A model generated the notes under the pieces. The model did not search any database and was not told the origin of the DNA. It saw only the letters and a program-made list of their open reading frames with translations. Source: a virus. From it: DNA of 20,619 bases. The first letter of the stretch is position 1; every line of letters begins with the position of its first letter. The stretch is taken from the IMG/VR virus record IMGVR_UViG_3300019487_000110, positions 1 to 20,619 of that record. One strand, given 5' to 3'. This document shows positions 585 to 20,155 of this stretch, one piece after another. The translations under genes were made by a program, and so were the position numbers.

Positions 585-2102
585 ATGGGTAGCGCCGCTG
601 GAACCTTCGTCAATTACGCCAAGAGCTCCGTTGCGCTTGGCGGCACATTCGGAACGGCGATCGCAAGCCCCGCGTTCAAGCGAGCCAGAATCACGAGCGA
701 TGGTCTCAAGGGAAACTATAAAGTCGAGAAGAGCCGCGAACTCGTCAATTCGTTCCGGACCAAGAACTTCCGCCGGCTGGGGCTTGATGCCGGCGGCGCG
801 CTTGGCTCCGAGTTCATCTTCGGCAATCTGGATGACTGGCTCGAGTCGCTGCTCTACTCCACCTGGCAACGGACGGCGCAACGGTACAATGCCACCGCCG
901 ATACGCAAATCACGGACGTCGCGGCGGGCACGGGGGTGTTCACCATTCTTGCTGCGTCCGCCGGAGATGAGAACCGGGTGGGCACCTTCGCGGTGGGGCA
1001 TCTCGTCCGGACCACCGCATTCACCAACGCTGGGAACAACGCCCTCAAGCGGGTCACCGCGGCCTCTGCGACCAGTTTCACCGTCGCAACGGCGGGCCTC
1101 GTCAATGAGGCTGCCCCGCCGCTCGGCGCCCGGGCCAAGGCGGTCGGGATCGAAGCACCCGCCAATGGGAACATCTCGGTCACCACCTCCGGTCTCGGTG
1201 CGGGAGAAGTCGCCATCATCAACGCCTCGGGGATCGACTTTGCGGCCTTGGGTATCGTGGCCGGAATGTGGTTCAAGGCGAGCGTATTCCCTACTGCAGC
1301 CGACAACGGGTGGTACCGGGCCCTCAATGTCACCGCCACGAGGATCGGGTGTGATCGGGCTCCCGTTGGTGTCGCCACGGACGCGGCGGCATCCGTCCAG
1401 GTACGGCTCTGGCTCCCGGACTACATCCGGGATGGCACGAGCGCGATCGTGTGGTTCGACTTCGAGCGGCAACTGCCGCAGCTTGCCACACCGGAGTACC
1501 ACTACTTCATCAGTATGATGGCCAAGAGCTGGTCGCTCGGTCTCACGCCCCAGGGCATCGTGACCTGCAGCGTGGGATTCATCGGGTCCAAGAAGAGTAC
1601 CGGGACCGCGCGGGTCGCGTCTCCGACCGACGTCACGGCGGATGCCCTTGGTGCCATCCCCCGCGTCGGGGAAATGTTCGACGCCTCCAACAACGTGGCG
1701 CGCGTGGCCCTCAACGGCACGCCCCTGGTCGATGTCGTCACCGACTGCTCGTGGCAGATCGACAACAATGCGTCCGGTCTTCCGGCCGTGGGGAACCTCG
1801 GTGCGGGACGGCTCCAGCGACCGGCATGGAATCCGGTGCTGACCTTGCGGAGTTACTACGACTCCCGCTCCCTCTTGGCCAACATCGAAGCCGACACGGT
1901 GTTCGGCGTCGAGAGCATTCTCACCGATCCGCTTGGGACCCGCGCCTTCATCATGGACTACCCAAGCGCCAAGACGCTCTCGGGTGACCTCAACGACATC
2001 GTGGCGGACGGAGAGCTCGACCTGCCGCTGAGTATCGGCGGCATCGAGAACACGACCTTCGGATGCCAAGTCCAGTACATGCGCTTTGAAGAGTATGCCT
2101 AA
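585..2102 (+). CDS. Major tail tube protein with duplicated small beta domain
   Basis: A 505-residue protein likely to be the main tail tube subunit. The N-terminal part (about 1-100) contains GALGSEF and then GNLDDWLESLL, a signature of Phage_tube_2-type tail tube proteins. These are often nearer 300 residues; the extra length comes largely from residues about 114-276, which hold two similar beta units. Each unit has a Phe-Ala turn, a Gly-Met/His-hydrophobic strand, an Asn/Asp-Asn-Gly-type loop and then RVTAASATSFTV or ALNVTATRIGC. The C-terminal part (about 277-505) returns to tube-type sequence. The ATG has Shine-Dalgarno GGGAGG (573-578) at 6-base spacing. It is followed by the chaperone and tape measure genes, the normal order. 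Confidence 0.8.
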   Translation: MGSAAGTFVNYAKSSVALGGTFGTAIASPAFKRARITSDGLKGNYKVEKSRELVNSFRTKNFRRLGLDAGGALGSEFIFGNLDDWLESLLYSTWQRTAQRYNATADTQITDVAAGTGVFTILAASAGDENRVGTFAVGHLVRTTAFTNAGNNALKRVTAASATSFTVATAGLVNEAAPPLGARAKAVGIEAPANGNISVTTSGLGAGEVAIINASGIDFAALGIVAGMWFKASVFPTAADNGWYRALNVTATRIGCDRAPVGVATDAAASVQVRLWLPDYIRDGTSAIVWFDFERQLPQLATPEYHYFISMMAKSWSLGLTPQGIVTCSVGFIGSKKSTGTARVASPTDVTADALGAIPRVGEMFDASNNVARVALNGTPLVDVVTDCSWQIDNNASGLPAVGNLGAGRLQRPAWNPVLTLRSYYDSRSLLANIEADTVFGVESILTDPLGTRAFIMDYPSAKTLSGDLNDIVADGELDLPLSIGGIENTTFGCQVQYMRFEEYA

Positions 2103-6200: not shown

Positions 6201-6648
6201 CGAGGCGAGCCGACTCTATCAGCAGCAGGAGGAGATGCGCCGGGCGATTGCCCGCGGTGCGTCGTCTGCAGAGATCGCCGAACTGCTCCGCGTGCAGGCC
6301 CTGGAACGGCACCGGGCCGACGAGCAGCGCCGCCTGGCTCAGCAGACGGCGTTTGACCAAACCTTCCCCGCGACGAGCGCGGCCACGATCGCGGCGAGCG
6401 CGAGCGGCATCAGTCTCGCGGTGGGGGTGTCCGAGACCACCGCAGGGCGACTGGCGGGGATTGGCATCAGCCAACTGGCCGTGCATCGAGAGCATGTGGC
6501 CATTGCGCGGGAGATGGTCGCGCTCCTCCGACAGATCGCGGCGTCCGTGGGCAACAACCGCATCGCGCCGACCGACCTTGACGAGGTGTTCGGGCAGCTC
6601 GACGCCTCGGGTGAGCGGGTGGCTGGCAACGCCCCGAGCTATCCATGA
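3274..6648 (+). CDS. Tape measure protein
   Basis: A 1124-residue protein, the largest helical product in the tail module, placed directly after the chaperones. Tape measure proteins set tail length and leave through the tube on infection; at roughly 1.5 angstrom per helical residue this one would suit a tail of about 170 nm (family rule, not measured). Residues about 108-155 are hydrophobic and Gly/Ala-rich (SLGMMAAGSGWTVALVAG, then VIVAAITAIG), a likely membrane-inserting segment, and a second one lies at about 622-650 (GISAGVSVLTAGITSFL). Much of the remainder is Ala/Glu/Arg/Gln-rich coiled coil, strongest from 740 to 1040. No peptidase or lysozyme domain was recognised. Bases about 4260-4440 are lower in GC than the flanks. 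Confidence 0.9.
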   Translation: MTGPPLKVVVGIDTSSIPGDVQIHTRGIEQVKANLGGLASAYRSTSPAVQQLREAMIAQGSSLRDTDAGLRKLGFTSAEMGQSLQRAGGVTQAVQPGFNKLQNATQMLALSLAGIPGPAGRVVSSLGMMAAGSGWTVALVAGVSVIVAAITAIGKEARDAKRHVDDLTTSLSEAYRKRTGIADEQAALELERRLNMLKLLRSQLGEELAREGRIKIGDEWLSVVAAMTKTAEALKEIAARAADAREAIIRTAEDARLSAQSIRAALSDSPETRAAAVLAQQRVDRQRAYDDAKKIVGADAEGLRIAKETADALANQVAKKKELEVVESKTFELQKLRAEQSGNWGAAETAILKLEEMARDRAIRQMTWLSTEQAKQYRLLLEQIDALGAQARLNERIGKQSALESLATDRRTALAEAQARLNTSLLRGADALTALQRLQQTEAAAVAQAEAQWAIYRQTLGQLPQAYVGVREAAAKYHDTMAQKWLQDARQYQRALSDINLALEQQADLFAEGPVTLLGDQVFPTSEQWERKNAAEIARQKAAEVDALERMRQLTEQAAQQIQDTLLGGFQDLFSAALSDGADFFRALEGFAAQSANAIRQKLIFQAGSFNKAGEWVAPSFGAQLGISAGVSVLTAGITSFLDDMFNGAARAREAAEQMRQAQEQWAQILSDFTNIWNPRGPLGDALEQLRRQYERGKLAVPGRSPAEQQYLIEKYADRELTGGVADHLIREARQYREEQRKLTEEYEKAVAATKARIEAEQAEEAARKEAEEARRAAGFRLTDLSLREQELDLAGDRPGALRAARDRQLEEAHQQLAAGGLTRELFARTAALIEGRLAKALQDLADQAEAAAEAVFAYNRRAQDDLALEILQHQATISGRTEDLRLAEDVQLQLEARRRVEQAVREGATEATLALLEQANAMRQQAVEAERSRRAAEAAARAQEEYARAQEASARFLEDLTVRELRARGIEAGADEASRLYQQQEEMRRAIARGASSAEIAELLRVQALERHRADEQRRLAQQTAFDQTFPATSAATIAASASGISLAVGVSETTAGRLAGIGISQLAVHREHVAIAREMVALLRQIAASVGNNRIAPTDLDEVFGQLDASGERVAGNAPSYP

Positions 6649-7445
6649 CCACCACGGGCTACGTTGACGCCTACAGTTTCGAGGCGGACTTCGGCCTCTA
6701 CCTCGCCGATCAGGATGGCCAACTCGACGGGGCGGCACCTGTCCCGCAGGAAGTCGAAATCCCGCAGGCCCGCGGGGCCATCCTTGTGGGCCCCGACCGG
6801 GTTGGGGTTCGTGAGTTCCTGCTGGACGGCGTTCTGGATGGTGCGAGTCGCGCCGCCGTCCGCACGAATCTCCGGAAGCTCCAAGCCCTGCTCCTCGACG
6901 GAAACAGCCACACCGTCCGGCTCGCGGATTGGGACACGGTGCAGATCGCTGCCCGGTGCGTTCGGTTCGATGTCGATCCGGACCCACCGAAACAGATCAG
7001 TATCCCGGTCAACGTCAGGCTCCACTTCCGAGCGTCCAACCCCTTCTGGCAGGACACGTCCACCCAGGACTACGGATTCGATGCAACGCCGACCGGGATG
7101 CCCCAGGGCACAGCACCCGCAGAGCCGCTCCTTCTCTCCCCGGGATCCCTGACCACACCGGTGCTCACCGGATACGACTACCTGAGCACGGTGCTCTGGA
7201 CCTGCACCCTTGCGACCCTCGGTGTCAATGATCGCTACCGCATCAATACTGCGCCCGGGGTGATGTCGATCGAGAAGTCGACGGACAGTGGGTCGACGTG
7301 GGCGGCGGCGGATAACGCGATCACCGCCGGTCGCTTCCCGATGGTCCTCCCCGCCAACGGAACCGCCTATCAGAGCGGGCTGTGGCCGCTCCTCAAGGCG
7401 TCCGTCGGCACGTGGACCGCACGCTATGCCCGGCAATGGAGATAG
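6645..7445 (+). CDS. Distal tail (Dit-like) protein
   Basis: A 266-residue protein whose ATG overlaps the tape measure stop (ATGA). The position immediately after the tape measure is that of the distal tail protein, a hexameric ring at the tube tip that anchors baseplate or tip proteins. The sequence is beta-rich. After the N-terminal half a conserved-looking RLHFRASNPFWQD segment (about residues 122-135) matches the Asn/Asp-Pro-Phe-aromatic turn that closes the N-terminal domain in Dit-type proteins. The C-terminal half (about 136-266) is a further beta domain ending in TARYARQWR. It could instead be a lambda gpM/gpL-type tip protein; Dit fits the length better. Confidence 0.65.
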   Translation: MTTTGYVDAYSFEADFGLYLADQDGQLDGAAPVPQEVEIPQARGAILVGPDRVGVREFLLDGVLDGASRAAVRTNLRKLQALLLDGNSHTVRLADWDTVQIAARCVRFDVDPDPPKQISIPVNVRLHFRASNPFWQDTSTQDYGFDATPTGMPQGTAPAEPLLLSPGSLTTPVLTGYDYLSTVLWTCTLATLGVNDRYRINTAPGVMSIEKSTDSGSTWAAADNAITAGRFPMVLPANGTAYQSGLWPLLKASVGTWTARYARQWR

Positions 7446-7456
7446 GAGGCTGAGCC

Positions 7457-10400
7457 ATGGCCTCCGACCAATTCCAGTATCTCGAGGTCTGGGATCGGCT
7501 CCAGGCTGCTGGCGGGGTGTGTAAGGGTCGGTTCCTGCCAGCCAGCACGGATCGACGCCGGAGCGTGAACGGCGACGATGCCTATCAGGTGCGCCTGCCC
7601 AAGACCAATCGCTGTGTGCCCTTCATCGAGCAGGGGGCGGCGATCCGGGAAATCCTGTCGGTGGACGGCGCGACCTGGCGCGAGTGGCCGGTCGCGGAAA
7701 GTCCGCACAGCGGATCGGGCAACGACCTCCTGGTTGTGGTGGACTGCATTTCCCCGCTGCTCACCCTGGTCAACTACCCCATTGAAACGTCCGACGGGGA
7801 TGGGTTTGTCTACCAGGAAACCGCCGCCGTGCAGATCACCATTGCGACCATCCTGGCAACCTGGGTGCGGGCGCGGACCCCGTCCTGGATTGTGAATGGC
7901 ACGCTCGACCCCACCGGGCTCTTGGAGGTGCCGTTTAGCCGTGACACGGCGCTGTCTGGCCTCCGACGCATTGAGGAAATCACCGACAAGGAAGCCTCAC
8001 TCACCCCGATCGGCACCACGCAGTACGGGATCCACCTGACGACGATCGGTGGGTCCGCTGCTCCACTCTACCTCCGTGCCGGGAAGCAGCTCCAGCAGTT
8101 CCGCAAGAAGGGGGTGCCGGGGATGGTGAACCGGTTCGACCCGATCCGCGGGAAAGACGGGGACGATCCGGGCACCAGTCCCATTGCCTTCGCCTACTGG
8201 GAGGTCGATGGGGCTCCGAGCGGGAGCAAGGTCAAGCTGAAGGCGATCCATGGCGGCGATGGGCCGATCGGCTTTGACGATCAGCTCAACCATGCCAACC
8301 TGCCCGGCGGGGCGAACAGCCTCTACCTGGAGAAAGAGGACGGAACCTTCACCCAGATCACCGACAGCGAGGTCGCGACGCAGGAACTCACGGTCGCCTC
8401 CATCACGGGGATCAGTGCAGGGCATTGGGTCCGGATCGTTGCGTCCAGCACCGGCCGACATCTCACGTTTCTCGATCATCCGAGCTCGATCGCGGCCTAC
8501 GGCGTGGTGGCAGGGGAGTACGAATCTGCCTTCGATGATACGGTGCAAATCGCGAAGAACGGATTGCAGGAGAACTGGGCCACCCCGTCGAGCGTGCCGG
8601 ATGGATGGTCCGGGGTGGGCAGCCGGACCACCGCAGCGAACGAATGGGCGACCGCAGGCCAGGCGCTCAAGATGACGGGGAGTCGATCGAACGGGACGCA
8701 GCTCGCGGCACCTCCAGCCCGCCCCTGGAGGATTCAGAATCGCCGCTCCTTCTTCTCCGCCACCGCGATCATCCGCGTGCTGGCTGCTTTCAGTCAGCCG
8801 GATAGCCAGCTCATCCTGCGGCTCAAGGCGGGGAGCACCGTGCTGGGCCAGATCGGCTACGGCACGGCGCGCTACAACGACATGGTGCAGCTCAAGATGG
8901 CCGGCGTGGATCTCACGGCGTACATCGGCCAGACGCCGAGCCTCACGGCGGAGCTGGTGCTGGGCGCTCCCACGAGTGGCAGCGAGAACGTGCAACTCAT
9001 CGTGGACTCCATCTGCTTTGGACCATCGCTCACCGCGCGCGCCCCCTGCGAAGGAAGCAACGGCGCCAGGGTCTGGCAGGAGGTGAACCGGCGCCTCGAG
9101 GAAACTGCTCCGCTCGCGGTGGCCTACGAAATGGGCGCGGCCGATCTCGATGCGCTCGGCGTGTCAGGGCAGGTGCCAGTAGTGCTCGGGCAAACGGTAC
9201 ACACCTACCCAGACGAACCCAATCTGCCGACTGTGGTCATCGCCCGCTTACTGCAAATCAGCGACAGGAGCGAAGACAAATCCGACGCGCGGTACGTGAT
9301 CGGGACCCTGCCACCACGCGCCTCCCGGAAGCGGGCTGCCCCTGCCGACTTGGTGATTCCGTTCATTGAACCCCTGGACGTGCAATGGGCGAAGGAAGAC
9401 ACCCGCAACGCGGCGCTATTCCTGGCGATCAAGACCCCGCTGGAGGATGATGCGACCACCGTCACAATCAATCTCGACGTGCGCGATACCCGCGGGGCCA
9501 CGCCAACGATTACGGCGACCGCGATCGGTGGGGCCTCAGTGATCAGCGGATCCGGTACCGGGCCCTGGGTCATCGGCAAGCCAGCGGCAGGGGCAGATGC
9601 CGGTCGGGCCATCTTCACGGCGAAGTACCCCGGCCGCAATGACGCGACCGACGCAGTGGATATCCCCGCTCAGGTGGGCATCCCGCTCACGTTGCAGGCC
9701 CTCTTGCAGTCGACCACGGCCTCCCAGATGGTCGTGCGCGTCTTTGGAGCCGATGGGGTGGGAGGTGCAACGGTCACCCTGACCTACTCTGCCCCTGGGC
9801 TCACGGTCAGCCCAGCGAGCGGGCAGACGTTCACCTCGGTTGCGAGCCCGACGGCGACGCCCGGGGTCGGTGAGTATGTCGACCTCACCATCACGCGGCC
9901 CGCTGAGAACACGGGCACCCGGCGGGTCCAGTGTCGGGCGACGGCCTCCGGCCATGACGCCGGTGCGGTCAGTATCGAGGTGCCGGATCAGTCGGTGGCG
10001 GGGATCCTCGGGAAACTCGAGGTCGTCAGTACCAGCGGGACGCAGACCGTCGTGCGTATGAGTACCGCTATTGTCGGTGGACCTGCCACCACGGCTATCT
10101 CCCTCCAGTACGAGAACAACGGCCTGACCGTCTCCCCGGCGTCGGGATCGCAGCAGGTGAGCTCGATGACCAACATCTACGACACGCCGGTCGGGGGGCA
10201 GTACGCCGACTTCACTATCACGCGGGGAGCGGCGGGGACAGGGACGAAGCTGGTCACCTTCTACGGCATCAAGAGCGGATACTGGAACGACCAGGTCTCG
10301 GTCGACGTGCCGGATCAGGGGCAGGCGCTCCTGGTGGCCAAGGCCACCCGCCAAAGCAGCACCGTCGGCTCCATCACGGTGCGGGTGAGTACGGCAGACG

Positions 10401-11485
10401 GCGTGGGCGGGGCAACTGCAACGATTACCTATGACGCGGGAGGGCTGACCGTCAGCCCGGCGAGCGGGCAGACCCAGACGACGATGGCTGACATCGCCTC
10501 GACGCCGGGCGCGAGTGAGTACGATGACTTTGAAATCACGAAACCGACGTTCGGGAACCCGCCCTCGCGCGTAGCGTTCCTCGCGACGGTTGGCAGCATG
10601 AAGTTCCCGTTCGCGGTCGACGTCGAGGCACAGGAGCGGGACACGATCGCGCTGTCGGTCAAACTCAAGCTCCAGACCATCAATGCCACCACAGTTGTCG
10701 TGCGCGTTGAGCCTGTGGACCCGTTCCCGCCCGGTGGGGCAAGCGTTACGCTGAGCTACACGTCCACGACCAGCGCCAGCCCATCGAGTCCACAGACCGT
10801 CACGCCGGACACCGTGTTCAACGACACGAACTACGTCGATTTCACGGTGGACCGGCCGACGGCGGGTGCGAGTGCTGCTCGCTTCACGGTGATCGCGGCC
10901 GATACAACCAATAGTCGTATTCCCGCCACGGACTCGATCGACGTCCCACCGCAGGAGCCCCCGTCGCTCGTGGTGACCGGTGAGCGGGTGAGTACCACGC
11001 AGTGGAAGTTCACGTGGACGTCGACTGGAACGGTGGAGGTCAAGAAGAATAACGAAGCCAGTTGGCAAACCCCGGCGACGTATTTCAGTAGTGGGACTGC
11101 TTTCAATCGGGGTGACACCGATGATGAGTACACATTCAAATGCTCCAATGGCGGCCAGGAAATCAGTTGGTCTGGGAAGGTGCTGGCGAAAGAGGGCGGG
11201 GCGCTCGGTGTCACGGCTCCCCACTACAATTCGGGCAGCAGCGTCGATATCAAGTGGACCCATGCAAACTTCCCGAGCGGCACGGTCTACAATGTCTCCT
11301 GGAAGCGATTCAACTCGTCCGGCACCTTCCAGAATGTTGCTGGTGAATCGCTGGGGGTGTCCGGGAGTCCGCTCAATGTCAACCCGACTGCGTCGAGCAC
11401 CGATCGCTTTGAAGTGACCGTCAGTGCGGTCTTTAACGGTCGGACCTTAAATGCAATCACCTTCTACCGGCAACTCACCACGTAA
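7457..11485 (+). CDS. Tail hub/tip protein with jelly-roll insert and Ig-like repeats
   Basis: A 1342-residue protein with Shine-Dalgarno AGGAGG (7444-7449) at 7-base spacing. Residues 1 to about 366 and about 524-620 together look like a tail hub (gp27/Tal-type) domain: the second part contains LGQTVHTYPDEP and then ARLLQISDRSED, matching the end of such hub domains. Between them, about 367-523 reads as a jelly-roll or carbohydrate-binding-like domain (PDGWSGVGSRT, then ILRLKAGSTVLG). Residues 638-1166 hold five Ig-like repeats of about 106 residues, four of them with a late Asp-Val/Ile-Pro-x-Gln. Residues 1167-1342 form one or two more beta domains. It probably links the tail tip to the receptor. 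No peptidase motif was found. Confidence 0.75.
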   Translation: MASDQFQYLEVWDRLQAAGGVCKGRFLPASTDRRRSVNGDDAYQVRLPKTNRCVPFIEQGAAIREILSVDGATWREWPVAESPHSGSGNDLLVVVDCISPLLTLVNYPIETSDGDGFVYQETAAVQITIATILATWVRARTPSWIVNGTLDPTGLLEVPFSRDTALSGLRRIEEITDKEASLTPIGTTQYGIHLTTIGGSAAPLYLRAGKQLQQFRKKGVPGMVNRFDPIRGKDGDDPGTSPIAFAYWEVDGAPSGSKVKLKAIHGGDGPIGFDDQLNHANLPGGANSLYLEKEDGTFTQITDSEVATQELTVASITGISAGHWVRIVASSTGRHLTFLDHPSSIAAYGVVAGEYESAFDDTVQIAKNGLQENWATPSSVPDGWSGVGSRTTAANEWATAGQALKMTGSRSNGTQLAAPPARPWRIQNRRSFFSATAIIRVLAAFSQPDSQLILRLKAGSTVLGQIGYGTARYNDMVQLKMAGVDLTAYIGQTPSLTAELVLGAPTSGSENVQLIVDSICFGPSLTARAPCEGSNGARVWQEVNRRLEETAPLAVAYEMGAADLDALGVSGQVPVVLGQTVHTYPDEPNLPTVVIARLLQISDRSEDKSDARYVIGTLPPRASRKRAAPADLVIPFIEPLDVQWAKEDTRNAALFLAIKTPLEDDATTVTINLDVRDTRGATPTITATAIGGASVISGSGTGPWVIGKPAAGADAGRAIFTAKYPGRNDATDAVDIPAQVGIPLTLQALLQSTTASQMVVRVFGADGVGGATVTLTYSAPGLTVSPASGQTFTSVASPTATPGVGEYVDLTITRPAENTGTRRVQCRATASGHDAGAVSIEVPDQSVAGILGKLEVVSTSGTQTVVRMSTAIVGGPATTAISLQYENNGLTVSPASGSQQVSSMTNIYDTPVGGQYADFTITRGAAGTGTKLVTFYGIKSGYWNDQVSVDVPDQGQALLVAKATRQSSTVGSITVRVSTADGVGGATATITYDAGGLTVSPASGQTQTTMADIASTPGASEYDDFEITKPTFGNPPSRVAFLATVGSMKFPFAVDVEAQERDTIALSVKLKLQTINATTVVVRVEPVDPFPPGGASVTLSYTSTTSASPSSPQTVTPDTVFNDTNYVDFTVDRPTAGASAARFTVIAADTTNSRIPATDSIDVPPQEPPSLVVTGERVSTTQWKFTWTSTGTVEVKKNNEASWQTPATYFSSGTAFNRGDTDDEYTFKCSNGGQEISWSGKVLAKEGGALGVTAPHYNSGSSVDIKWTHANFPSGTVYNVSWKRFNSSGTFQNVAGESLGVSGSPLNVNPTASSTDRFEVTVSAVFNGRTLNAITFYRQLTT
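9368..10954 (+). repeat. Five tandem Ig-like domain repeats in the tail hub gene
   Basis: Repeat boundaries follow the closing Pro-x-Gln (or Glu-Ala-Gln) motifs whose Gln residues are 739, 845, 954, 1059 and 1166, giving units of 106, 109, 105 and 107 residues; the first unit starts near residue 638. Units 2-4 share an internal LTVSPASG motif and a D(F/L)xIT strand; units 1 and 5 are more diverged. The DNA copies differ, so the duplication is not recent. Confidence 0.8.
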
Positions 11486-11956: not shown

Positions 11957-12700
11957 ATGCCGATTGCCGCGACTGATCTCAAGCTCTACGGCACCGCCAA
12001 CCACGCCGAGAACGACACCGCGACCCAGGGTGGGGCCATCTCCACCGTCAAGAAACTCGAGTTCACCCAGATCGCGGCGAACGACGATCTCGAGGCCCTC
12101 TCAGACAACGCCGGCGACACGATGAACCTGACCATCACCGCCCGCAGTACTGCGGGGGCCATCGTCTCGGAGACCAAGGCGTTGACCGGGACCACGGCCG
12201 CGATCTTCTCCACGATCGGGGTGGTGGAGCGGTTTCTCAAGGCCGTCCTGGCGAGTGCGGCCACCGGGACGATCACGATTCGGCGCTCGGTGGGGGGAGC
12301 GACGGTTGCCACACTGGCCCCCGGGCAGACCGAAGCTCGGCTGGTGTTCTACGACGCCGCCTCGGAGTCCGGCTCCACCACGCGGTACGAGAAGGGCTTC
12401 TTCAAGAACGAACACGGCTCCCTGACGCTGAACAGCGCGGCGATCAAGTTGACTGCCGATCCCTCCGCAGTCATTCGCGTGGGCTCCGCTCCGTCGAAGG
12501 GCGACACGGCCACCGCCACCAACCGGAAGACAGCTCCCGCGTCCGTGACCTTTGTGGACGATGGGGTCTCGCAGGCCATCCCGACCGGCGCACTCGCTGC
12601 TGGTGAGACGATCGGGGTCTGGTTCGAGCTCGCCCTCGCCGCCGATGCCGCGGCCGCGAAGAGCTCGCTCACCGTGGAGTTGAGCGGCACGACTATCTGA
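11957..12700 (+). CDS. Probable virion structural protein (247 aa)
   Basis: A beta-rich protein opening with MPIAATDLKLYGTANHAEN and QGGAIS. This style of N-terminus (a short Leu-Tyr strand, an Asn/Asp-rich loop, then Gly-Gly-Ala/Met) is one I associate with conserved proteins of unknown detail encoded in tailed-phage structural modules. The sequence alternates Thr/Ala/Val strands with small loops, has no cysteine, no signal peptide and no membrane segment. It is the first gene after the terminator, with Shine-Dalgarno AGGAG at 9-base spacing. Its exact site in the virion is unknown; a decoration or tail-associated protein are both possible. Confidence 0.5.
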   Translation: MPIAATDLKLYGTANHAENDTATQGGAISTVKKLEFTQIAANDDLEALSDNAGDTMNLTITARSTAGAIVSETKALTGTTAAIFSTIGVVERFLKAVLASAATGTITIRRSVGGATVATLAPGQTEARLVFYDAASESGSTTRYEKGFFKNEHGSLTLNSAAIKLTADPSAVIRVGSAPSKGDTATATNRKTAPASVTFVDDGVSQAIPTGALAAGETIGVWFELALAADAAAAKSSLTVELSGTTI

Positions 12701-15762: not shown

Positions 15763-15866
15763 CCTACCGGGAATGCCCGGACGGAAGTTTGGAAATCCGT
15801 GCCAGCATCGGGTCAGCGTACTGGCACGGGTACTTGGACGAAGGCCATAACTGGAGGAAGGCATGA
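15759..15866 (+). CDS. 35-residue coupled small ORF
   Basis: GTG 15759 overlaps the previous stop (GTGA) and has GAGGAGG (15745-15751) at 7-base spacing; its TGA (15864-15866) overlaps the ATG of the next gene (ATGA). The peptide is rich in Gly, Tyr, Trp and charged residues (GSAYWHGYLDEGHNWRKA at the end) and does not look like random out-of-frame sequence. It fills the gap between two genes exactly. Its last codons also supply the Shine-Dalgarno GGAGGA of the next gene. Confidence 0.5.
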   Translation: MTYRECPDGSLEIRASIGSAYWHGYLDEGHNWRKA

Positions 15867-17026
15867 AAGTCACCATGAAGTTCACTCAGTTCGCCCTCGT
15901 CGCGGCATTACTGGCTCTCACCGGCCCGCTCGCCGCGCAGACCCCGGCGCAGGACAGCGCCACGGTCCGAGTCAAAGGTGACTCGCTCCGGCGTCTCTGC
16001 CCGAGCGGAGCGAGCACGGCTCGGTGTCACCGACTGGCGTGGGAGCAGCTGATCGCCCTGGGCCGGCTGCACGGGCTGGTGGCCGTGCCGGTGCCGCCTC
16101 CTCCACCACCGCCACCGGTACCGCCGCCACCACCCCCGGTGCCGCCCCCCGCGCCACCGCCTCCGCCCCCACCGCCAGCGCCGGTGCCTCCACCTCCGCC
16201 TCCTCCGGACCAGACACTACCCAACCAGCCGGCGGGGTTCTTGCTGATTCAAGATTATCGGTTCGATGTGCATCCCCAGGCGCTGGTGGGCCCGGGGACC
16301 TGGGGCTCGACCTACCGAGATCGGCCGGACGCGGAATACCGGCTGACCGCGACCGGGTTCTCCGGTGCCGCGCCCCACGGGGGAACGGTGGGCGATATGT
16401 GGATGTACAATGCATTCTCGGGAGAAGGGGTGGAGCCCGATGCGTTGGGCATCGAACTCACTGCTGCACACAAGCTCTACGCAAAGCTCTATATCGCCTT
16501 CTGGATTCAGTTCTCGGCGAACTGGCAAGGGCATGGCTCGGGCTTCGACAAGATCTTCCACCTGTGGACCCCGCCGGGTAGCGATCCGCGCAACCGGGTG
16601 TTCTTCTCCGCGGTCAACTTCTCTGGCTCCAATACCGGGAATGACGCCACGACGATCTGGCCGAGTTCCTTCTGTGTGAACCTGCAGACGCCGTGGGGCG
16701 CGAGGAACTTGTACGACCAGTCCCGCCACCCCGACTTTCCGAAACCGCCCGGCATGATGGGGCTTCGGCGCGGTGTGTGGCATCGAATCGAAGTGCTGCT
16801 GGAGCAGAACACCGGCGACAACTTCGACGGGAAGGTCCGGGCGTGGGTGGACGGCGTGCTCACCCAGGATTATTCCGATGTGCGCTTCACGCTGGCCGGT
16901 GAGGCGAAAGGTTGGCACTACTTGGAGTGGGCTCCCACCTGGGGCGGGTACTCCCCGATCAACGTCAACCGCTCGGGCGGGATGCACATGTTCATGGACC
17001 GGATCTACATGAGCGGGCGGAACTAG
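15863..17026 (+). CDS. Secreted polyproline protein with polysaccharide-lyase-like (ConA-fold) domain
   Basis: A 387-residue protein. Residues 1 to about 25 form a Sec signal peptide (Lys-containing N-terminus, FALVAALLALTGPLAA core). A short segment with Cys46 and Cys55 follows, then a proline tract at 76-115. The C-terminal domain (about 124-387) resembles concanavalin-fold polysaccharide lyases of the PL14/PL20 kind: WIQFSANWQGHG, then GVWHRIEVLLEQNTG and GKVRAWVDGVL, then a closing MFMDRIYM strand. Such domains bind or cleave acidic glycans. No lipobox is present. A signal peptide is odd for a virion protein; it may be a phage-encoded exported depolymerase, adhesin or conversion factor. 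Catalytic residues were not assigned. Confidence 0.6.
   Translation: MKVTMKFTQFALVAALLALTGPLAAQTPAQDSATVRVKGDSLRRLCPSGASTARCHRLAWEQLIALGRLHGLVAVPVPPPPPPPPVPPPPPPVPPPAPPPPPPPPAPVPPPPPPPDQTLPNQPAGFLLIQDYRFDVHPQALVGPGTWGSTYRDRPDAEYRLTATGFSGAAPHGGTVGDMWMYNAFSGEGVEPDALGIELTAAHKLYAKLYIAFWIQFSANWQGHGSGFDKIFHLWTPPGSDPRNRVFFSAVNFSGSNTGNDATTIWPSSFCVNLQTPWGARNLYDQSRHPDFPKPPGMMGLRRGVWHRIEVLLEQNTGDNFDGKVRAWVDGVLTQDYSDVRFTLAGEAKGWHYLEWAPTWGGYSPINVNRSGGMHMFMDRIYMSGRN
16088..16207 (+). repeat. Proline-rich tract (residues 76-115)
   Basis: Forty residues composed almost only of Pro with isolated Val and Ala (units such as PVPPPPPP and PPAPPPP). It probably forms a stiff polyproline-II rod between the N-terminal segment and the lectin-like domain. 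Translation of such runs normally depends on EF-P. The CCN-rich codons make the opposite strand glycine-rich, which creates a false frame there. Confidence 0.9.
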
Positions 17027-17718
17027 TGAGTTGGAGTAAAGTAGGGGAGACGGGCTTCGCGACAGGAGTAGGTGATACTCACGTTGTGTCCTTACCTGGG
17101 TCACCTGTTGCTGGTGATTTTGTCTTAGTTGTACTTGCCTGTGATGCAACAGCGGACCCATCGGATGCCACTACGGTCATTACATCGGGTTATACCCAAC
17201 TACTGAGAACTGGCAGTAACGCGCCAACAAACTATGTCGGTTACAAGGTTCTCAGTGGTACACCTGACACTGAGGTTGAGGTGCGTGAGCATGTGGACAC
17301 CCTCTCCTGTGGCCTGATTCAAATTTGGCGAGGTGTGGATACGGCCTCGCCTCTGGATGTGACCCCTCCAGCGGCGGCAACGGGAACGACTGGAACACCA
17401 AACCCACCTTCGATTACTCCAGCAACCGCTAACGCCCTAGTGGTCGCTATCGGCCTCTTGGATGACGATGACGTAGCGGGAAGCGTGACTGCGCCGAGCG
17501 GATACGGCGATCTCATCGCCGCTGACACTGGTCAGGGGAGCGTTGACGGCTCAACAGTCATGGTCGCCTCAAAGGTGCTCGCAACACCAGCCGCCGAGGA
17601 CCCTGCTGCGTTTGGTGGTGGTAACGATGCGTGGATTGGTTTTACTATCGCTTTGCGTCTGGCGGTTGGAAGTTTGCTGCTTAGGCACCGCGCGATGGAC
17701 CACATGCTGGTTCGTTAG
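17026..17718 (+). CDS. Beta-sandwich phage surface-type protein (230 aa), low-GC gene
   Basis: The gene begins at GTG 17026 in a TAGTG overlap with the preceding stop; the frame is open further upstream but only as an overlap with the lyase-like gene. The sequence follows a pattern common in beta-sandwich proteins of phage structural modules: Gly-rich start, SLPGSPVAGDFVLVVLA, a Ser-Gly-Tyr-Thr turn, a Tyr-Lys-Val strand, IQIWRGVDTASPLD, then PSITPATANALVVAIGLLD and a terminal hydrophobic strand. Function as a virion or cell-surface binding protein is inferred. GC is lower than in neighbours (29 of 60 at 17101-17160), which suggests separate acquisition. The C-terminus (LLLRHRAMDHMLVR) looks unusual and may not belong to the fold. 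Confidence 0.6.
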   Translation: MSWSKVGETGFATGVGDTHVVSLPGSPVAGDFVLVVLACDATADPSDATTVITSGYTQLLRTGSNAPTNYVGYKVLSGTPDTEVEVREHVDTLSCGLIQIWRGVDTASPLDVTPPAAATGTTGTPNPPSITPATANALVVAIGLLDDDDVAGSVTAPSGYGDLIAADTGQGSVDGSTVMVASKVLATPAAEDPAAFGGGNDAWIGFTIALRLAVGSLLLRHRAMDHMLVR

Positions 17719-17745: not shown

Positions 17746-17958
17746 ATGGCGACTTGCCCTGCTTGCGCTCAGCCAGTGCCGGAACCCCGGTACTGTACAG
17801 AGTGCAGTGGGCTTATACGGCGGCGCAACACGCCGCTTGGCCCTCGTGACTGCTGTACGAAGTGGTGCACGCTCGGGCAACAGGAGCAGGCACGCTGTAT
17901 CGAAGCGTCAAAGGACGCTAAGGGACGACCGGCGGCAGCCACCGCCAGGGAGGTGTGA
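17746..17958 (+). CDS. Small Cys-rich zinc-ribbon-like protein (70 aa)
   Basis: An ATG with AAGGAG (17733-17738) at 7-base spacing. Cys4-Pro-Ala-Cys7 and Cys17-Thr-Glu-Cys20 form a compact zinc-ribbon pattern; further cysteines at 36, 37, 41 and 51 (DCCTKWC) could bind a second metal. The C-terminus is basic and Ala-rich. Such small zinc proteins can bind nucleic acid or be structural; no HNH-type His/Asn signature is visible. Its GC is lower than that of the repeat protein gene downstream. It lies between two probable structural genes, so it may be a passenger gene. Confidence 0.6.
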   Translation: MATCPACAQPVPEPRYCTECSGLIRRRNTPLGPRDCCTKWCTLGQQEQARCIEASKDAKGRPAAATAREV

Positions 17959-17960
17959 AT

Positions 17961-18431
17961 ATGGGTCGCCACTATAGCTTGCCCCTCGTATCCACGGCGG
18001 TCACGGCCGCGGTTGATTTGGCTGAGATCGTGACCGCGGCGACGCACATCTGTATCATCCATTCGATCTACCTCCACCAGTCGACCGAGGCTGGCGATGC
18101 TCAGGAGGAACAGCTTCGGCTGGCCTTTAAGACCGGTCAGACAACGTCCGGTTCTGGGGGAAACACCGGCGTGACCCCGGTGCCCCGCCTGCTCGGTGAC
18201 GCCGCGCACGGCATGACGGTGGAGACGTTTAACACCACCAAGGCCTCGGCCGGGACCATCGTGACCCACGGTGCGTGGCCGTGGAATCTCCGACAAGCGT
18301 TCGAGAAGATCTTCACACCGGAGACTAAGATTTTTATTCCGCCCTCGACGCGGGCGACCCTTGAGTTGGTCGCTGCACCGGCCGATTCGGTGACCTTTGA
18401 GGGGGAGATCTTGCTTGAGGTGATCGGGTGA
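17961..18431 (+). CDS. Conserved phage structural-module protein (156 aa)
   Basis: ATG 17961 has GGAGG (17949-17953) at 7-base spacing; an in-frame GTG at 17955 would leave a single base after the site and is rejected. The protein (GRHYSLPLVSTAVTAAVDL, then IIHSIYLHQSTEAGDAQEE, TSGSGGN and the closing EGEILLEVIG) resembles a family of about 150 residues that I recall from many tailed-phage structural modules, with the same order of SQSTE-GDAQEE, TSGSGG and APADS segments. The family's function is not known to me. Beta-rich, no signal peptide. Its stop overlaps the repeat-protein start (GTGA), indicating joint translation. Confidence 0.6.
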   Translation: MGRHYSLPLVSTAVTAAVDLAEIVTAATHICIIHSIYLHQSTEAGDAQEEQLRLAFKTGQTTSGSGGNTGVTPVPRLLGDAAHGMTVETFNTTKASAGTIVTHGAWPWNLRQAFEKIFTPETKIFIPPSTRATLELVAAPADSVTFEGEILLEVIG

Positions 18432-19819
18432 GTAGCGGCGTCTTCCGACGGTACTGGCACCACTATTATCTGCGCCGCCCGACGTTCACGTTTGGGGCGG
18501 CGGCGACGTCGGTGTCGCAGTCGTTCGGCCTGATCCTCGCCTGGAGCCAGGGAATCCGTACCTCGAACACCTTGCCGCTGGAGGTCCTGGGTGGCGTCCG
18601 CTCTGGTGCCACTGGGTCCATGGAGTGGCTCCAGAGCGTCCGGGCCTCTGGCAGCGTTCCCGTGGAGTGGAACCTCGGGTTGCGCTCCTCGCCGGCGCTC
18701 CTCCTTGAATGGCTTGCCACCATCGCAAGCGGCAGAACCCTGCCGTTGGAACGGCTCCTCGGGGTCGCCACAGGGCGCATGGTGGTGATGGAGTGGCTTC
18801 GCGGGATCGCGGCCCAAGCCGGTCTCCCGTTGGAGTCCTTGCTCACCATCCGGCTCGGTCCGACCCCACCGCTGGAGTGGCAGGCGGGCGTTCGCACTCC
18901 CGCAACGGTTCCCTGGGAAAATCGCGGCCCTGTCACGGTGAGCGTCCAAGCCACGCTGCCGATCGAGTGGCTCCACACGATCGCCCAGAGTGCCAGCGCG
19001 CCAACGGACATGCTCCAGGGGGTCCGTGGCGCTCGCACGGTCATCGTCGAGCTCCTCCGTGGGATCGCCTCAGCCGGAGTTGTCCCGGCGGAATGGGCGC
19101 AGGCGATTCGGCAGGGACGGACCGCACCATTCGAATCAGTCGCCAGTCGCACGTCCGGAGCAACGGCTCCGTTTGAGAACCTGCGCGGGGTTCAGGGAGG
19201 TGTCACGGTACCCGCCGAGTGGATCCGGGGCATCCGTGCGAGCGCGGGTCTCCCCGCCGAGTGGATCGCGGCGGTGGCCAGCGGTCGCAGTCTCGCGTGC
19301 GAATGGGTGAGACGCATTGCTGCGAGTGGCGCGATTCCCGACGAATGGGGACTCGGGCTCCGGGCGGGCCGGGCCGTACCGGTGGAATCCCTGCTCACGC
19401 TCCGATCGGGCCCGGTACTGAGGGTGGAATGGCTCGGCTCGGTGCGGAGCGGCCTCCCGCTGCCGTTCGAAGTCGGCCAGGGGCTCCGGTCGGGTCGGAC
19501 CATCCCGCTCGAGCTGCTGGGTCGCCTCGCCGCAGGGCTCACGGCCCGGGTGGAGTGGCTGCAGGGAATCCGCACCAGCACGGGCGTGCCATTCGAATTA
19601 GTGCTCAGCCTCCGGGTTGCAGGGTCCGTGTCCTTCGAGCAGCTCCTCGGTCTCGCGCGCTTGGGGCTCATCCCGATGGAGTGGGTTGGCGGGGCGAGTG
19701 TCACGCACCGGGCCACGACGGTGGAGTTGGCCCTGTCAGTCACCCTGGCCGCCCTGGCCGACCCCGCTACGATCGCGGCGCTTACCGCCTCGCGGACCAC
19801 GCTGGAGGAGATTGAGTAA
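18428..19819 (+). CDS. 14-residue tandem-repeat protein, probable fibre shaft (463 aa)
   Basis: GTG 18428 overlaps the previous stop. After a short aromatic/basic N-terminus (residues 1-30, with YWHHYYLRR), residues 39-418 are built from 27 units of 14 residues. The acidic residue falls at 52, 66, 80 and so on to 164, then (after a 2-residue insertion) at 180, 194 (Asp) and on to 418. Unit pattern: small-Gly-(I/V/L)-(R/A)-x-(S/G)-x-x-hydrophobic-Pro-hydrophobic-Glu-Trp-Leu. By my count Pro precedes the acid by two places in 19 units, Trp follows it in 14, and Arg or Ala lies six places after it in 23. The array ends with a helical tail (ALSVTLAALADPATIAAL). The product is likely a fibrous beta structure in the adhesion apparatus. 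Confidence 0.7.
   Translation: MSSGVFRRYWHHYYLRRPTFTFGAAATSVSQSFGLILAWSQGIRTSNTLPLEVLGGVRSGATGSMEWLQSVRASGSVPVEWNLGLRSSPALLLEWLATIASGRTLPLERLLGVATGRMVVMEWLRGIAAQAGLPLESLLTIRLGPTPPLEWQAGVRTPATVPWENRGPVTVSVQATLPIEWLHTIAQSASAPTDMLQGVRGARTVIVELLRGIASAGVVPAEWAQAIRQGRTAPFESVASRTSGATAPFENLRGVQGGVTVPAEWIRGIRASAGLPAEWIAAVASGRSLACEWVRRIAASGAIPDEWGLGLRAGRAVPVESLLTLRSGPVLRVEWLGSVRSGLPLPFEVGQGLRSGRTIPLELLGRLAAGLTARVEWLQGIRTSTGVPFELVLSLRVAGSVSFEQLLGLARLGLIPMEWVGGASVTHRATTVELALSVTLAALADPATIAALTASRTTLEEIE
18542..19681 (+). repeat. 27-unit, 42-bp coding repeat array
   Basis: The units are 42 bases long and coding; the acidic codon recurs every 42 bases from 18581 to 18917 and from 18965 to 19679, with one 48-base step between. 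DNA copies are well diverged (varied third positions), so selection acts on the protein pattern and no recent expansion is visible. Confidence 0.85.
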
Positions 19820-20155
19820 ATGGCCCTCACCACATTCACGATCAAGCAGGGGGACCGGCTCCCCGCGCTCGCGGCAACCCTGAAGTTCGCGGACGGCACG
19901 ATCAAGGATCTGACGGGGCACACGGTGAAATTCCTAATGCGCTCAGCGAAGACCGGAACGGTGAAGGTCAATGGCAACGCCTCCGTCGTCCTCGCCTCGG
20001 CGGGCACCGTCCGCTACGACTGGGCGGGCAGCGATACGGATACGGTGGGCCATTATCAGGGCGAGTTCGAGACCACGGAAACGGCGACCGGCAAGAAGAC
20101 GACGTTCCCGAACAGCGGGTATCTCACGATTCGGGTGGGTGATGACATCGCATGA
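19820..20155 (+). CDS. BppU N-terminal-like baseplate/fibre anchoring protein (111 aa)
   Basis: ATG directly after the TAA of the repeat gene, with GGAGGAG (19804-19810) at 9-base spacing. The sequence TIKQGDRLPAL, then FADGTIKDLTGHTVKFLMR, VRYDWAGSDTDTVGHYQGEFE and the final GYLTIRV strand follow the BppU N-terminal domain (DUF2479 type): ligand-free beta fold with a Gly-Asp start, an Asp-Leu-Thr-Gly strand turn and a Gly-x-Tyr-x-x-Glu-Phe segment. In lactococcal phages BppU links receptor-binding proteins to the baseplate. Here it is only that domain, so it may anchor the neighbouring repeat protein. The partnership is inference. Confidence 0.7.
   Translation: MALTTFTIKQGDRLPALAATLKFADGTIKDLTGHTVKFLMRSAKTGTVKVNGNASVVLASAGTVRYDWAGSDTDTVGHYQGEFETTETATGKKTTFPNSGYLTIRVGDDIA

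Follow-up and report, generated by a model that had tools for sequence, protein, structure and literature searches.

A tandem array of 14-residue units in the structural module of a tailed phage: a candidate virion fibre and its relatives

A protein made over almost its whole length of tandem 14-residue units, about 28 of them, is encoded in the tailed-phage DNA analysed here (the window, positions 1 to 20,619 of IMG/VR record IMGVR_UViG_3300019487_000110), and on balance we think that it is a virion fibre of the adhesion device, with the units forming a shaft or spacer. The window is a structural segment in which genes for the tail tube and the distal tail protein Dit are followed, further on, by the array gene and a gene for a BppU_N-like protein (Table 1). 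That the array adjoins a BppU-like gene, as the first-pass annotation of this DNA had proposed, is borne out, and the module is a siphovirus structural one, the PF10651 match (E 4e-5) scoring 23.8 bits and thus lying barely over the Pfam cutoff of 23.1. Elsewhere in the window, positions 7457-11485 encode a tail protein of 1342 aa in which several diverged Ig-like segments, each of about 90-100 residues, stand in tandem, and positions 15863-17026 a product with a signal-peptide-like start, a long proline-rich linker and a weak polysaccharide-lyase-like match at its C-terminus (Pfam E 0.005, under the cutoff), features that would suit a secreted or virion glycan-active protein as one possibility.

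Table 1. Positions in the window of the array gene, its parts and the surrounding genes
Feature	Coordinates	Strand	Remarks
Tail tube protein (Phage_tube_2)	585..2102	+	Assigns the array to the virion module of a tailed phage
Distal tail protein Dit	6645..7445	+	phrog_33, E 8e-10
247-aa protein (marker gene)	11957..12700	+	In 27 other loci, homologues come directly after the array gene or lie close to it
Structural-type protein	16912..17718	+	C-terminal homology to LamG-like protein of L251; gene order shared; true start uncertain
Upstream gene, 158 aa	17955..18431	+	Homologues 76% (L251) and 71% (L336) identical
14-residue array protein	18428..19819	+	463 aa; GTG start in a 4-base overlap (GTGA) with the stop codon of 17955..18431
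N-terminal segment, residues 1-32, MSSGVFRRYWHHYYLRRP...	18428..18523	+	VFR motif; possible virion anchor
Array block 1, residues 33-172	18524..18943	+	10 units (unit 1 has Ala for Glu; unit 10 diverged)
2-residue insertion separating blocks 1 and 2	18944..18949	+	
Array block 2, residues 175-426	18950..19705	+	18 units without gaps
C-terminal tail, residues 427-463 and stop	19706..19819	+	
BppU_N-like protein, 111 aa, possible adaptor	19820..20155	+	PF10651 E 4e-5; phrog_1627 E 4e-9, unknown function

A recount of the array gave figures identical to those first reported: acidic residues, 26 Glu and one Asp, recur with exact 14-residue spacing from 52 to 164 and again from 180 to 418, with a single 2-residue insertion, and Pro at offset -2 in 19 units and Trp at +1 in 14 units (counted from the acidic residue) were both reproduced exactly. 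This lattice takes in 27 of the 28 acidic residues that lie within residues 39-426. If the indel is ignored, the best 14-residue lattice still collects 18 acidic residues, against a maximum of 10 and a mean of 4.6 in 5,000 shuffles, and the autocorrelation of residue identity is 0.28-0.31 at lags of 14, 28 and 42 and 0.04-0.11 at other lags. The 27 repeat copies counted previously stand as lattice units; a 28th, at residues 33-46 (FGLILAWSQGIRTS), in which Ala replaces Glu, had been overlooked. The lattice Glu codons are mixed (15 GAG and 11 GAA) and the units have diverged from one another, which argues that the pattern is kept at the protein level and not by recent duplication of DNA. Beyond the array the ORF has the short C-terminal tail and no globular receptor-binding domain.

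The strongest regularity of the window array is the spacing of its hydrophobic residues. Across the units, one of V, I, L, M, F, W or Y occupies offsets -3, -1, +1 and +5 in 78, 78, 74 and 93% of cases, respectively, and offsets 0, +4 and +6 in none; taken as faces, the odd positions (-3, -1, +1, +3, +5) are 70% hydrophobic and the even ones 17%, the exception being offset +2, which is hydrophobic in 78% of units. Judged from this pattern, each unit is probably a single amphipathic beta-strand of about 9 residues followed by a polar turn. The odd face is the more hydrophobic in all 40 of the 40 array proteins compared, an agreement that is partly built in by a phasing profile that favours hydrophobic residues at those offsets. 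Among the commoner indels of the arrays are insertions of two residues, mostly placed immediately ahead of offset +5 (25 of 59) or within the turn, and at such sites they fit a strand whose alternation must be kept. The positions outside the core vary freely between units and between phages.

The window array protein has no match in Pfam or among PDB sequences, and since a search for relatives with the protein itself returned nothing, DNA patterns for 14-spaced PxEW were used instead. Chance accounted for about half of the pattern matches when viral sequences were first scanned and for nearly all of those in GTDB, and several repetitive proteins (L039, L072, L187, L161/L182/L229) were dismissed on inspection as carrying different repeats. 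True arrays were recovered in this way from L002, L007, L008/L026, L010, L006/L011, L012, L016, L019, L020, L021, L022/L023, L032, L152, L164 and L206, and from L117, a contig of a Gammaproteobacteria MAG. The 436 units of 17 of these proteins yield the consensus H-x-[IVL]-P-[VI]-E-W-x-x-x-[LVI]-x-x-D, with 14 as the commonest spacing and 15, 16 and 17 also found. A profile of 17 array sequences finds two proteins that were not part of it, in L264 (E 1e-37) and L254 (E 3e-46), these values being inflated, like all alignment and profile E-values of arrays, by repetition; the same profile has matches in three of 369 genomes sampled from the class to which the L117 genome belongs, its own among them. 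Altogether, some 40 viral contigs from the environment and a few genomes of bacteria carry period-14 array proteins. In the literature we did not find such an array described, a tblastn search of 50,697 named phages with six different arrays gave no sense-strand relative (a recurrent match of PxEW arrays to phage BUCT552 lay on the antisense strand and was taken as chance), and using the tail tube to look for relatives turned up none.

The earlier view that the repeat belongs to no named family holds for Pfam and has to be qualified for PHROGs, in which the 605-position profile 6079 ('tail protein') matches several relatives well (E 1.7e-13 in L021, 2.5e-12 in L010, 9e-13 in L007 and 3e-6 in L206) and the window weakly, at an E of 0.005 that is short of a safe threshold. 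The matches cover profile positions of about 41-230, whereas positions from about 230 to 605 are unmatched by the arrays, for which the label 'tail protein' is an inherited one. Pro-x-Glu-Trp, in turn, can no longer be taken to define these arrays, because across the wider class the period of 14 is retained and the P, the E and the W are not: variants include PxEW, VPFASLLSISRS, IPVEFEKGI, APVEALTGI, IPLSYKIDVN and LDIETLLSLSNNKS, and what is common to all is the period together with alternating hydrophobic residues at -3, -1, +1, +3 and +5. Period-14 arrays of an AEHLxAEQS type, lacking the usual Trp and often Pro, occur in L276 and L306 and may or may not share the fold of the others. Some array proteins (L007, L010, L021 and others) carry additional repeats, namely ARVSTLTVEVLRRGDPA-type units that precede the 14-residue array within the same protein and Trp-centred repeats (RGTVW..., xxxW.A) that come after it (L002, L007, L016, L019 and L206).

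The marker gene at 11957-12700 gave access to arrays by a route that uses no repeat motif. Alignment of its product fetched 65 loci, which together with L251 made 66 loci and 626 ORFs, and these were scanned for periods of 8-34. Strongly periodic ORFs (z>6, the maximum in shuffled sequences being 4.5) had a period of 14 in 24 cases, of 28 in four, and of 12, 16 and 18 in one case each. A period-14 array is present in 28 of the 66 loci, although L255, counted among them, merely shadows the array of L206 on the minus strand and a few contigs are duplicates (L256/L257, L275/L276, L265=L152 and L269=L164), so that the independent cases number somewhat fewer. The array lies upstream of the marker homologue in 14 loci (with a gap of at most 24 bp in 11) and downstream in 13; in L206, L117, L152 and L019 homologues about 36-40% identical to the window protein stand directly behind the array gene, and in the bacterial genome L322 a APVEALTGIQQTAT-type array is followed, some 15 bp on, by the closest marker homologue found, 58% identical to that of the window. 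In the window itself the two genes are 5.7 kb apart and not adjacent; its period of 14, its hydrophobic offsets (-3, -1, +1, +5) and its virion module fit the class. As a control, none of the 285 ORFs of six named phage genomes had a period of 14, and a single tail-fibre repeat, of 20 residues, turned up; the loci picked by pattern are biased toward period 14 and were therefore left out of this comparison. Beside a marker homologue, L252 (8042-10444) carries a short-repeat array of another kind (KTGTASKSGTA).

The placement among phage structural genes that had been expected of homologues extends to these relatives, whose array genes sit in virion structural modules, the commonest arrangement being immediately ahead of a marker homologue. 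Baseplate wedge genes are found near the array in L164 and L022, and a gene for a Gp77 fibre-tail adaptor (E 3.5e-15) near that of L117, with a weaker relative of the same PHROG in L152. Major head or capsid or head protease genes share the contig with the array in L010 and L152, a LamG domain occurs as neighbour or fusion in L164 and a LamG-like protein also in L251, and L254 has a weak match to 'virion structural protein'.

One syntenic slot holds different repeat types, of 14, 18 or 22 residues. The gene that precedes the array is common to the window, L251 and L336 (with 82% identity between the latter two; the values for the window are given in Table 1), and the gene after it begins alike in all three, with the VFR motif near the N-terminus, and goes on in L251 and L336 with repeats of the 18-residue GATTPAGALVKATDKGLT type or the 22-residue GAYTVTGAAATLRAARRLSAVA type. 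Behind this slot, L336 has a phrog_644 gene and then a gene weakly like that of the BppU_N-like protein (BLAST E 0.02), for which Pfam gave no match. Unit number can change as well: L206 and L117 are closely related, and a single whole unit of 14 residues makes the difference between their arrays (dN/dS 0.37). Among cultured phages, the Casjensviridae tail protein of the Aeromonas phage BUCT552 type (phrog_1101) has C-terminal 14-residue repeats, e.g., VQAELLAPYNLRST, with a motif other than that of the PxEW arrays (hhalign probability 34%, the E of 4e-4 being inflated by the repeats), and by analogy these C-terminal arrays, the only candidates from cultured phages that came up in this analysis, could be a cultured counterpart of the window array. 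In these Aeromonas phages (L034, L323-L326) the array motif changes strongly from phage to phage, with a period of 14 in BUCT552, vB_C4, BUCT551 and AhMtk13b and of 16 in A18P4.

Structure prediction gave some indication of how a unit may fold. The AF2 monomer model of the whole window protein (from 17 sequences) has a pLDDT of 34 and scattered strands, and that of an L264 block (18 gapless units, 22 further rows) a pLDDT of 54, with one strand of 8-11 residues per 14 and short turns over most of the block; both are low-confidence and monomeric models, and an obligate oligomer lies beyond what monomer prediction can test. A Foldseek comparison of the L264 block model with BFVD and the PDB gave no match at E<=0.001, and the PDB list, mostly of left-handed beta-helix enzymes with TM of about 0.1-0.2, was set aside. 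The arrays could nevertheless represent a known trimeric fibrous fold in a new sequence, an idea that is compatible with the fibre reading and that we consider rather doubtful, even though the repeat lengths are similar and short hydrophobic strands with Pro or Gly suit beta fibres. One such fold is the triple beta-spiral of adenovirus, reovirus and PRD1 fibres, a homotrimer built from 15-residue repeats, each with two antiparallel strands and a Gly/Pro turn. The arrays resemble it as short beta repeats with Pro or Gly in viral fibres; however, their period is 14 and not 15, they have one hydrophobic strand face, the low-confidence L264 model has one strand per unit, and no PDB chain matched the window sequence; the triple beta-spiral shaft suggested at first is thus not borne out. 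The ladder of Glu and Arg side chains that went with that suggestion finds no support either, since Glu gives way to Ala, Ser or Asn in many L264 units and Arg is not conserved. The other candidate is the left-handed parallel beta-roll of YadA-type heads in trimeric autotransporter adhesins, which has 14 residues per layer, a length shared by the phage arrays, and whose long arrays are proposed to gain and lose entire layers (PMC9543794). Its layers have a conserved Gly at position 8 (PMC9543794), which is missing from the phage arrays (Gly reaches at most about 26% at any offset), Pfam scans of the window protein and its relatives gave no match to the YadA-head repeat, and the YadA-type head stands on a bacterial surface, whereas the arrays belong to a phage virion module and one strand per unit is suggested.

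Other readings concern function rather than fold. The array itself might bind receptors or glycans, as a beta-sheet adhesin of repetitive build in which the exposed residues of the units contact the host, which would be consistent with a protein that is nearly all array and has no tip domain after it, with the freedom of the non-core positions to vary between units and phages, and with the LamG-type proteins that adjoin the arrays or are fused to them (L164, L251). Wholesale replacement of the repeat type beside a gene that is 71-82% identical suits a length element at least equally well, however, and we hold direct binding by the array to be unlikely. The head genes near the arrays of L010 and L152 count against a tail device, since a fibre or decoration of the head or neck would fit them too, as it would the weak structural match in L254; the tail tube, Dit and BppU_N genes of the window, the baseplate genes of L164 and L022, and the Gp77-type adaptor of L117, with its weaker relative in L152, make this alternative still less probable. 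Least probable of all, in our estimate, is that the array is disordered and strings together short linear motifs, with every unit binding a partner: the low AF2 confidence and the Trp-containing motif at fixed spacing agree with it, but the period is strict with small indels only, the odd and even faces alternate in every array protein compared, and the insertions that preserve this alternation are among the commoner ones.

On the reading that we prefer, an adhesion-device fibre carried by the particle, each unit would contribute one amphipathic beta-strand (offsets of about -4 to +5, with the odd face hydrophobic) and then a polar turn of 4-5 residues, and these strand-turn units would build a long sheet or sheet-sided fibre, possibly oligomeric, with unit number setting its length. 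Attachment of the array to the tail would be through the short N-terminus and the BppU_N-like protein encoded next to it. Because no globular domain follows the array, we assign tip binding to a partner, which could be the product of 11957-12700 or the LamG-type neighbours. The receptor-binding fibre proposed in the first-pass annotation is supported in part: the location in a structural module and the BppU_N neighbour speak for it, and the lack of a receptor-binding domain after the array speaks against it.

More tentatively, the arrays may belong to a large and unnamed class of phage fibres, the invariant of which would be the 14-residue amphipathic strand-turn unit, with a topology not yet solved, and the slot of the array gene might act as a cassette in which related phages exchange 14-, 18- and 22-residue types and so alter how long or how stiff their adhesion device is. 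Such arrays were found in 28 of the 66 loci fetched with the marker, yet they lack a Pfam family, and their coverage by PHROGs is only partial. The swap of repeat types beside a gene conserved at 71-82% is a natural experiment on which properties an array has to preserve (length, stiffness) and which it can give up (sequence). If the arrays are shafts, their countable units would be a simple ruler for how long a fibre is, and the beta-fibre topology that they could be used to test may be a new one.
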